Shown here in pieces: positions 1 to 2,315 of a stretch of DNA of 5,234 nt. The notes beneath the pieces are model-generated. The model was not told where the DNA came from, ran no database searches, and saw only the letters and a list, made by a program, of their open reading frames with translations. Numbering within the stretch: position 1 is the first letter of the stretch; the number at the start of each line of letters is the position of its first letter. Position numbers and translations under genes: made by a program. Source of the stretch: Alistipes sp. (GTDB taxonomy: Bacteria; Bacteroidota; Bacteroidia; Bacteroidales; Rikenellaceae); assembly GCA_017384185.1 (NCBI GenBank), contig JAFNUH010000329.1, forward strand, positions 1 through 5,234. Reading direction: 5' to 3'.

Positions 1-260
1 GCCATACTCTTCATACACTCGGCACCACCTACGGGGCAGTACAATGCAGAGATGTCGTCACGCAATACCATAGCCTCAGCCATAGCACGACAACCGGCAA
101 ATCCACAACCACCGCAATTTGCACCGGGAAGCATCTTCTCGACCTCATCGATACGGGGATCCTCCTCCACCTTGAACTTCTGAGCTACGAAGTACAAGAT
201 AACGGCAGCAAGAATACCCAGCACGCTGAGTGTCAGAATTGTAGATAATAAAACCGTCAT
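1..260 (-). CDS. rnfB: Rnf electron transport complex subunit B, N-terminal part (runs off the window)
   Basis: This is the first 86 codons of RnfB, the iron-sulfur subunit of the membrane Rnf complex, which couples electron transfer from ferredoxin to NAD+ with ion pumping. The start is the ATG at 258-260. Residues 3-25 form one hydrophobic membrane anchor, followed by the short charged linker QKFKVEEDPRIDEVEKMLPG. The cluster motif follows, with C49, C52 and C57 in ANCGGCGFAGC and a fourth cysteine at C75 in LYCPVGG. This spacing is that of the RnfB 4Fe-4S domain. The later ferredoxin-type clusters expected in the full protein lie outside the window. The start codon overlaps the rseC stop as ATGA, so translation is probably coupled. 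The rseC-rnfB order is usual in Bacteroidales, where rnfC, D, G, E and A normally follow. The assignment is firm even though the gene is partial. Confidence 0.95.
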   Translation of the reverse strand, partial: MTVLLSTILTLSVLGILAAVILYFVAQKFKVEEDPRIDEVEKMLPGANCGGCGFAGCRAMAEAMVLRDDISALYCPVGGAECMKSM

Positions 261-679
261 TTTGTTTGTTTAATTATTATAAATTTTATTTTGTTTTTCA
301 CCTTATCACGCAACAGATGCAGCACTACATAGTAGATAGCAACTCCGCCCAGCGCAGATAACACCGCAACGCCCTCGCCCGCACCCATCATCAGCGAGCC
401 AACAAGCATCAGCGTCAAAACTAAAAAGGGTACTACGTACGCCAAAACGACAGACTTAGCACCCATAGAATCACTCAAAAGAGCTACTTCAACACTCTCT
501 CCAATATTAAAATCAGCAGCCGAGGCGGTCTCCACCTCGACTATCTTCTCAGTACTCTCCGATACGCCACATACTCCCTTGGCGTGGCAAGCGCTACAAG
601 CACTATTGACCGTCATACGCACAAAGACGCTATTGCCCTCAATGCGTATCACCTCACCGCAATGTTTCACTGCTGCCAT
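257..679 (-). CDS. rseC: RseC/SoxR-reducing-system family membrane protein
   Basis: This 140-residue protein belongs to the RseC/MucC family of small inner-membrane proteins. Members are found with Rnf/Rsx operons and have been linked to SoxR reduction and envelope-stress control in proteobacteria; their role in Bacteroidota is less clear. The N-terminal part has the family cysteines in the run ACSACHAKGVCG (C28, C31, C37), a possible metal or redox site. Two hydrophobic segments follow at about residues 74-97 and 101-122, then a basic, isoleucine- and lysine-rich tail. The start at 677-679 gives the usual family N-terminus, in which MAAVKHCGEVIRIEG precedes a beta-rich domain. It lies 52 bp after nadE with no visible terminator, and its stop overlaps the rnfB start by an ATGA. 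I saw no Shine-Dalgarno sequence. The family call is strong; the molecular role here is inferred from position. Confidence 0.9.
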   Translation of the reverse strand: MAAVKHCGEVIRIEGNSVFVRMTVNSACSACHAKGVCGVSESTEKIVEVETASAADFNIGESVEVALLSDSMGAKSVVLAYVVPFLVLTLMLVGSLMMGAGEGVAVLSALGGVAIYYVVLHLLRDKVKNKIKFIIIKQTK

Positions 680-731: not shown

Positions 732-2315
732 TTAATAACCGTACTTATTAACCAACGGGAACAAGCACTCGTGGCGGAATGAGCAAGTCGAAAGACGCAA
801 CACGGGGGGATACTGATAACGCTTCTTCACGTTCTGCATCACCATAGAGTGAATCTTCTCGACAACCTGCGAGTCGAAGCCGGCATTGATAATCTCCTCA
901 CGATGCTGACCCTCCTCAATCATACGATAGAGGATTGCATCCACAACCTCGTAGGGAGGCAAAATATCGCTATCCTTCTGGTCGGGACGAAGCTCCGACG
1001 AAGGCTCCTTCTTCAAGATTACCTCAGGGATAACATTATCGAAACGGCTATTGATATAGCGAGCCAAATCGTAAACCTCGCTCTTATAAAGGTCACCGGT
1101 AACACTAAACGCACCAGCAGTATCGCCATAGAGCGTACACCAACCGATAGCATTCTCACTCTTATTCGATGAGTTGAGCAATACGTAACCATCCTTATTC
1201 TGCAAAGCCATCAACAGCACGGTACGGATACGTGACTGGATATTCTCCTCGGTAGCATCGAACTCCGTACCACCCGTCACAGGCTTCAAAGTATCCATAA
1301 TAGCTGTATATGCCGCAGTGATGGGCAATACGCTATACTCAATACCCAGGTTTTCTGCCAAAATCTTTGCATCCTCCACAGAGTCATCAGATGAGAACTG
1401 CGAGGGCATCATCAAGCCCTTGACATTCTCCTTACCCAAAGCACCAACAGCCAGACAAGCGACAACAGACGAGTCGATACCACCCGAAAGACCTACGCAA
1501 GCCTTCTTGTAACCATTCTTGTGGAAGTAGTCACGCAGACCCAAGCACGCTGCCTTGTAAACCATACGTGTGCGGTCGTTATACGATGTGTAGGGAATAT
1601 CAATAGGTGTGTGCTCGGCCTTAGTGTCGAAGATTACAAAATCCTCCTCGAAGCTCTTCATCATAAGCTCCACATTGCCATCCTTGTTCATAATGCCCGA
1701 AGTACCATCGTAAACGATATCTCCAGAGCCACCCACCTGATTGATGATTATGATATTGCGACCCTCAGTGTAAGACAAGCGACGCAGAGTCTCCAAACGA
1801 CGTGAAAGCAAACCCTTACCATAACGGCGTGAATTGACGTTGATAACAAAATCTGCCTTAGAATCAATCTCCGAGAGGTGAGCCAAATCGTTACCCACCA
1901 TAATAGCGACGTTTCTGCCACAGATGTTGATGGTCTTATATCCCTCGCCCTCGACAATAAATCCCATCTCACGGCGTGCCGTAACATACTGCTTCTCAAC
2001 AATCGCATCCACACAACCATTTCGCAACACGGCGGCTGCACTGACAGCACCACGCTCGGTCAACACGGGAGAACCTACGATAGCCGTAACACGGCGGCAA
2101 GCCTCGGCAATACGCTCCAAAGCCTCCTCGCACAGGGTGAGGAATGTGGTTTTACGCAACAAATCATAAGCGGGGGTTCCACTTATGGCATACTCGGCAA
2201 AGAGCACTACATCAGCGCCTTCAGCCTCTGCTTTACGGATTGAATCGATGATACGAGAGACGTTTGCATCGATATCACCGATGGTATAATTTAATTGGGC
2301 AAGAGCAATCTTCAT
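732..2315 (-). CDS. nadE: NAD+ synthetase with a degenerate N-terminal glutaminase domain
   Basis: This 527-residue cytoplasmic enzyme catalyses the last step of NAD+ synthesis, the ATP-dependent amidation of nicotinic acid adenine dinucleotide. The C-terminal synthetase domain (about 250-527) looks intact. It has the PP-loop SGGIDSS at 277-283, NKSE at 384-387, the TLYGDTAGAF loop at 394-403, EPSSELRPDQ at 437-446 and LPPY at 452-455. The N-terminal domain (1 to about 240) has the C-N hydrolase fold that normally releases ammonia from glutamine. E41 and K108 of the expected Glu-Lys-Cys triad are present. The cysteine motif, normally ICED, reads VGND at 140-143, which puts G141 (codon GGT) at the nucleophile. 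The usual LPN after the lysine and the SPF/SPY pocket motif are also missing. The best reading is an ammonia-dependent synthetase with a pseudo-amidase domain. The start MKIALAQLNYTIGD is the family N-terminus. A promoter lies about 45 bp upstream. Confidence 0.95.
   Translation of the reverse strand: MKIALAQLNYTIGDIDANVSRIIDSIRKAEAEGADVVLFAEYAISGTPAYDLLRKTTFLTLCEEALERIAEACRRVTAIVGSPVLTERGAVSAAAVLRNGCVDAIVEKQYVTARREMGFIVEGEGYKTINICGRNVAIMVGNDLAHLSEIDSKADFVINVNSRRYGKGLLSRRLETLRRLSYTEGRNIIIINQVGGSGDIVYDGTSGIMNKDGNVELMMKSFEEDFVIFDTKAEHTPIDIPYTSYNDRTRMVYKAACLGLRDYFHKNGYKKACVGLSGGIDSSVVACLAVGALGKENVKGLMMPSQFSSDDSVEDAKILAENLGIEYSVLPITAAYTAIMDTLKPVTGGTEFDATEENIQSRIRTVLLMALQNKDGYVLLNSSNKSENAIGWCTLYGDTAGAFSVTGDLYKSEVYDLARYINSRFDNVIPEVILKKEPSSELRPDQKDSDILPPYEVVDAILYRMIEEGQHREEIINAGFDSQVVEKIHSMVMQNVKKRYQYPPVLRLSTCSFRHECLFPLVNKYGY

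Follow-up and report, generated by a model that had tools for sequence, protein, structure and literature searches.

A NAD synthetase without its glutaminase cysteine suggests a lineage-wide shift from glutamine to free ammonia in Alistipes

From where does a two-domain NAD synthetase take its nitrogen when the catalytic cysteine of its glutaminase domain is missing? The question is raised by nadE in the window, the whole 5,234-nucleotide stretch of Alistipes sp. DNA analysed here, which comes from a genome (G000) of 408 contigs that is 74.5% complete. The closest named relatives are Alistipes and Rikenellaceae metagenome-assembled genomes (MAGs), and many of their titles mention ruminant or deer hindgut samples. 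In addition to the features given below, the minus strand of the window carries genes for a zinc-ribbon coiled-coil protein, a Nif3-like protein, a MerR-type regulator and a protein with an RsmF PUA-like domain.

3-260, minus strand: FeS-domain protein, truncated by the edge of the window.
257-679, minus strand: rseC/mucC.
732..2315, minus strand: nadE, an open reading frame encoding a short two-domain NAD synthetase of 527 amino acids (NCBIfam NF010588, 507.7 bits against a curated cut-off of 479).
1608..2315, minus strand: nitrilase-fold (glutaminase-like) N-terminal domain, residues 1-236, predicted to be catalytically dead (PF00795, 35.4 bits at residues 2-116; model mean pLDDT 92).
2193..2195, minus strand: E41, general-base glutamate position, kept in 85/85 Alistipes loci.
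1992..1994, minus strand: K108, catalytic lysine position, kept in 85/85 Alistipes loci.
1977..1985, minus strand: VTA (111-113) replacing LPN, by comparison with active relatives.
1968..1970, minus strand: E116, second active-site glutamate position, kept in 84/85 Alistipes loci.
1893..1895, minus strand: G141, codon GGT, nucleophile position, between strand 134-140 and helix 141-149 (sequence; model secondary structure).
1887..1898, minus strand: VGND (140-143) replacing ICED (HMMER alignment to the solved structure 5kha).
1821..1829, minus strand: RRY (163-165) replacing SPF/SPY, by comparison with active relatives.
816..1559, minus strand: NAD synthetase domain, residues 253-500, intact (PF02540, 237.2 bits against a cut-off of 21).

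By NF010588, a type F model, the protein is a two-domain NAD synthase. PF00795 lies N-terminal to PF02540, both above cut-off, and the predicted structure (mean pLDDT 92, pTM 0.91) has its best fold matches among two-domain NAD synthetases, with 5kha, 3n05 and 4f4h among them. The presence of the glutaminase-like domain sets it apart from the single-domain ammonia-dependent class. The C-E-K triad of glutamine-dependent enzymes, however, lacks its cysteine: as the original prediction had read from the letters, the alignment with 5kha sets VGND on ICED and leaves no cysteine at the nucleophile position, where GGT encodes G141. In the model a strand ends and a helix begins at this residue, placing it at a strand/helix turn, which we take to be the place of the nucleophile in nitrilases. 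E41, K108 and E116 match the glutamate, lysine and second glutamate whose roles in NAD synthetases are set out in the available part of PMC6946656. The proposal that further pocket motifs had been lost was borne out: LPN and SPF/SPY are replaced and the YN of 5kha is matched by other residues. That these three active-site residues are retained had gone unremarked there. The synthetase half proved intact, as had been claimed.

The cysteine is missing far beyond this genome. Glycine occupies position 141 in 85/85 Alistipes loci (110 before identical sequences were dropped), including two records whose titles name strains, not MAGs (L057, Alistipes sp. An66; L082, A. muris DSM 112343), and is thus fixed in the genus. 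Among the 120 matches listed for close database homologues, 119 carry G, the exception being P0022 with R; a second set of family-like proteins gave 114 G, 3 N, 2 D and 1 H among 120 matches listed. Across 30 genomes of 17 other Rikenellaceae genera, hand-picked from 88, the residue was G in 27, N in 2 and D in 1. Cysteine loss was thereby seen in 17/21 other genera of the family; in 2 more, the site falls within the shortened part of the sole two-domain NadE read, and in 2/21 no NadE was found. A sequencing or assembly error, for which GGT lying one base from TGT might speak, and which the original prediction had considered unlikely, is practically excluded by a glycine common to all 85 Alistipes loci and nearly all close homologues listed, the loss being fixed across genus and family. 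That another residue has replaced the cysteine and glutamine hydrolysis persists is scarcely credible: the kept E41, K108 and E116 would fit, but no nucleophile is conserved at the site, where residue 141 is G, N, D, H or R and residue 142 is D, N, E, S or others, and the substrate-pocket motifs are lost as well. Gly, Asn and Asp may be favoured at position 141 since they tolerate the strained backbone expected at the nucleophile turn.

Outside the family, we chose 40 NadE proteins of other Bacteroidales among the matches listed so as to span families. Cysteine was present in 32/40 and clearly lost in 7/40; the remaining one (L266) is ambiguous and was not counted as a clear loss, as one alignment puts G at the site and another a nearby Cys. 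Homologues of L239, from another Bacteroidales family, have Cys in 119 among 120 matches listed, and the sole Cys-less one (P0122) is 99% identical to the query. In a further family (f107), the cysteine has been lost in another way, with FDEYE at the nucleophile site of L235 and L257. The tree requires at least three changes between Cys and not-Cys, of which the starred branches force only one. Within Rikenellaceae NadE, the loss is, to judge from this distribution, old.

If the enzyme cannot use glutamine, it must be fed in another way, and genomes with a single NadE bear on this directly. A NAD_synthase family search of 268 Rikenellaceae genomes found a member in 261. Seven genomes with a completeness of 90% or more (G192, G194, G208, G189, G250, G252 and G203) have a single NAD_synthase gene, and it is Cys-less, so that their synthetase must obtain nitrogen from elsewhere. 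Unless these genomes have another route to NAD, their Cys-less NadE is very likely functional and runs on ammonia. In the laboratory, several amidotransferases of the different glutaminase classes remain active with ammonia when their nucleophile is mutated. That the synthetase domain should use ammonia is to be expected because characterised two-domain NAD synthetases accept ammonia too, according to the available parts of PMC3376133 and PMC6946656; in the former, all those previously characterised use glutamine in addition to ammonia. With the seven genomes, loss of glutamine hydrolysis and ammonia as donor, as first proposed, becomes the best-supported reading of these sequences.

Five more single-NadE genomes, from two other genera (G212, G219, G220, G221 and G223), have open reading frames of 468-474 codons. 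Of these shortened forms (L185-L189), the motifs were read in two, L185 (G212) and L186, and both lack much of the K108-G141 stretch through an internal deletion around the former glutaminase active site. The idea that the dead domain is kept for structure is consistent with purifying selection on it, but these five genomes indicate that the requirement is not strict. An apparent loss of the full domain in G214 (L175, a 272-codon open reading frame) was rejected as a truncation; the contig begins there, with what we take to be Illumina adapter sequence.

Many Alistipes genomes also carry a second, long NadE (~640 amino acids, NF002730), which we found in 168/180 genomes of the genus (E 1e-100); G000 is one of the 12/180 in which it was not found, at 74.5% completeness. 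We read 88 long NadE sequences (66 Cys, 22 G), in which L165/L201 and L160/L309 are the same genes twice. The distinct sequences, 6/86 of them from other genera, thus have Cys in 65/86 and G in 21/86, with no other residue. Some long NadE matches contain one internal stop (L291-L299), a possible sign of nonsense decay. With Cys in 65/86, much of the genus can still draw on glutamine to make NAD. The search for a second nadE that the original prediction had called for was positive for the genus, though not for G000, but had an unforeseen outcome in the clade of G000. There, the long NadE has itself mostly lost its Cys, with G in 14/16 and Cys kept in G033 and G034, leaving an intact second enzyme as a possible rescue in only 2/16.

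This clade comprises 17 genomes, that of the window included, which are separated from the others by a branch with an SH-aLRT of 99; the tree, a quick one, was built from NadE, PyrG and CarA without glutaminase columns and without GuaA. The 17 had first been picked from an earlier tree with GuaA, in which that branch had 88. G125, in which CarA has Ser and the long NadE has Cys, is not counted among the 17, as too few of its genes were available to place it in the tree. Three nonhomologous glutaminase classes are listed in the available part of PMC3376133, and class I enzymes were first checked as a control; the result was the opposite of a control. We searched 36 genomes for CarA, PyrG and GuaA and, with G192 and G208 included, read 34 CarA, 34 PyrG and 29 GuaA. 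The genome search did not find CarA in G064, G041, G060 or G217, G039 and G068 contribute no PyrG row, and the partial GuaA of G058, G059 and G125 were left out. The survey as a whole covered both NadE, CarA, PyrG, GuaA, PurF, GlmS and HisH.

CarA of G000 and of its closest relative, G026, has GISLG for GICLG, a change from Cys to Ser, and that of G000 (L314) also has FYPE, with Tyr at the active-site His. Throughout the clade, CarA lacks the nucleophile cysteine (17/17; 16 Ser and 1 Ala; L314, L313, L372-L387). Outside it, the cysteine is lost in 4/16, with Gly in G136, G176 and G102 and Asn in G056; G136 and G176 have a second, intact CarA beside the Gly-type copy. PyrG of G000 (L318/L342) and G026 reads GVGLG (Cys to Gly) and FNPE for FHPE (His to Asn). 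In the clade as a whole, PyrG has lost the His in 14/15 and the Cys in 9/15 (relatives' rows L343-L354 and L357), some proteins lacking His only and others His and Cys; both residues are present in G033.

All 13 clade GuaA read (13/13) lack the Cys and His columns, in frames of 432-460 codons with one of 513 (rows L326 from G026, L359, L360, L368 and L409-L418). In G026, the glutaminase model matches at positions 1-75 of 188, below cut-off, and the synthetase part scores 461 bits; a class I glutaminase search of that genome (E 1e-5) found no other member besides HisH. GuaA was not found in G000, incomplete as it is. G056, outside the clade, also has a short GuaA with 88% identity to that of G026, which either shared descent or transfer might explain. 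In G000, one more class I match, the fourth (L325, reading CRGAQ), looks like a secreted peptidase-like protein and not like an amidotransferase.

Canonical PurF was not found in any of the 15 clade genomes searched. Fourteen of these 15, with G000 as the miss, have instead a PurF-like protein starting MSG[FI]FG, with Ser for Cys (L434, L437-L445, L449, L451, L452 and L456), which scores below the PurF cut-off (188.8 versus 350). When the class II family was searched, G000 had no match, and in G026, G030 and G029 the Ser-type PurF was the only one. Outside the clade, the Ser-type protein occurs beside another PurF in G136, G176 and G192, which makes it an older paralogue and not a new mutation, so that the absence of canonical PurF is what marks the clade. 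For PurF of G056, the cysteine lies outside the fetched stretch and we make no claim on the residue. GlmS was found in none of the 15 clade genomes, which is weak evidence because it was also undetected in 4/11 genomes outside the clade (G134, G137, G102 and G176). More generally, the absences (PurF, GlmS, and long NadE in G000) weigh less than the changed residues, since the clade genomes are mostly incomplete MAGs. By contrast with a general decay, HisH was found in 12/15 clade genomes and its cysteine is intact in 12/12 read.

Could a separate nitrilase-family glutaminase supply ammonia to the synthetase in trans? The available part of PMC3376133 describes two-subunit and remote-subunit NAD synthetases. 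The original prediction had also suggested looking for such a subunit; beside NadE itself, G000 contains a further nitrilase-like match, which is weak (G000:C377, 32% over residues 2-96). The enzyme's own N-terminal domain is predicted to be folded in place and would probably occupy the docking surface, and the CarA, PyrG and GuaA losses would go unexplained, as their glutaminase fold differs. We consider this explanation highly improbable.

The retained domain evolves quickly. At synthetase distances of 0.10-0.15, the mean ratio of glutaminase-like to synthetase distance is 2.30 for 748 Alistipes pairs and 2.13 for 49 pairs of other family members, versus 1.36 for 41 pairs of Cys-keeping relatives; the difference is smaller at 0.25-0.30, with 1.48 versus 1.26. 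Compared with the window, dN/dS of the domain is 0.036-0.132 in 16/19 loci giving a ratio, values that are rough because dS is near or above 1 (L010, L018 and L022 gave no ratio, and L011 and L012 were left out). On these sequences, the domain is apparently relaxed yet still constrained.

Such constraint might mean that the N-terminal domain has been repurposed for ligand binding or regulation, with glutamine, glutamate, NAD or a PII partner as examples, and is retained for that reason. E41, K108, E116, D143, R163 and Y165 are near-invariant in Alistipes, and in other bacteria dimeric two-domain NadE is under the control of PII proteins, as the available part of PMC7196632 reports. However, R163 and R164 are not conserved beyond Alistipes, the single-NadE genomes of two other genera lack much of the stretch where it was read, and the protein has no known ligand. 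Repurposing is thus unlikely in our view. A purely structural role would not be a full explanation either, given the strong conservation of E41, K108, E116 and D143.

A further alternative is neutral decay under weak selection, with no adaptation to ammonia. It would account for the faster divergence of the glutaminase-like domain than in Cys-keeping relatives, and for losses that look stepwise, as between PyrG without His only and PyrG without His and Cys. Against it, the synthetase domains are intact, HisH is untouched, dN/dS is far below 1, and glutaminases of different folds are affected in one clade. We therefore regard neutral decay as a tentative alternative, rather unlikely as the main cause.

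A lineage-wide shift from glutamine to free ammonia remains the best reading of the sequences. What the data show are the sequences, their conservation, the counts across genomes and the tree; the loss of glutaminase activity, the use of ammonia, the role of the N-terminal domain and the ecological cause are inferred from them. With Gly at the nucleophile position, NadE has most likely lost glutamine hydrolysis, free ammonia would be what its intact synthetase domain uses to make NAD, and the N-terminal domain would be a folded nitrilase shell, probably retained for the domain interface. In the window's clade, ammonia probably enters most of these reactions directly, that is, those of CarA, PyrG, GuaA, the second NadE and PurF. 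Most simply, free ammonia would suffice in these cells, leaving glutamine channelling without selection. The original idea of an ammonia-rich gut habitat gains weight from the degradation of other glutaminases in the same genomes. Several observations count against a complete change: the intact HisH implies that glutamine amidotransfer has not been wholly abandoned, the long NadE is intact in most genomes outside the clade and in G033 and G034 within it, and G033 also keeps an intact PyrG. We hold the account as a whole, comprising a Cys-less, ammonia-fed NadE, an old loss, clade-wide glutaminase losses and direct ammonia feeding, to be highly probable. We also lean, with less assurance, towards a broader statement: that this gut Alistipes clade has dismantled glutamine amidotransfer almost genome-wide, with three unrelated folds hit, HisH as the sole survivor found and the pathways run on free ammonia. 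The folds concerned would then plausibly be the nitrilase fold (both NadE), class I (CarA, PyrG and GuaA) and class II (PurF).

NF010588 accepts this NadE, and some sources name its relatives 'NAD+ synthase (glutamine-hydrolysing)', which is probably wrong for the whole family. The 2012 family survey infers glutamine use from domain architecture, in the available part of PMC3376133, a rule that Rikenellaceae probably break. Together, CarA, PyrG, GuaA, PurF and the second NadE, with their losses, offer a natural test of why cells pay for glutamine-to-ammonia channelling and lead one to expect that these gut bacteria rely on ambient ammonia. Among the open-access titles and abstracts listed, we recognised no report of a Cys-less Bacteroidales NadE or of glutaminases lost in parallel, although this does not prove novelty.

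Among known systems, the dimeric NadE2-Gln enzymes (5kha, 4f4h; NF010588) resemble the Alistipes protein in domain order, length, fold and synthetase residues, a comparison of sequence and fold, not of oligomeric state; the Alistipes NadE differs in having Gly for Cys and neither LPN nor SPF. The single-domain ammonia-dependent synthetases (1xng, 2e18) share a similar synthetase fold and, by prediction, the same chemistry from ATP, deamido-NAD and free ammonia, whereas the Alistipes NadE carries a full extra nitrilase-like domain. M. tuberculosis NadE C176A (3sdb, 3seq, 3sez, 3szg) likewise lacks the nucleophile and keeps the fold, and it reportedly retains ammonia-dependent activity; that mutant was made, whereas the Alistipes change is natural and family-wide. 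A natural counterpart is vertebrate carbamoyl-phosphate synthetase I, an ammonia-using enzyme with Ser in place of its glutaminase Cys. The CarA proteins of the clade share this Cys to Ser change, but the vertebrate case concerns one enzyme, and that of the Alistipes clade several.
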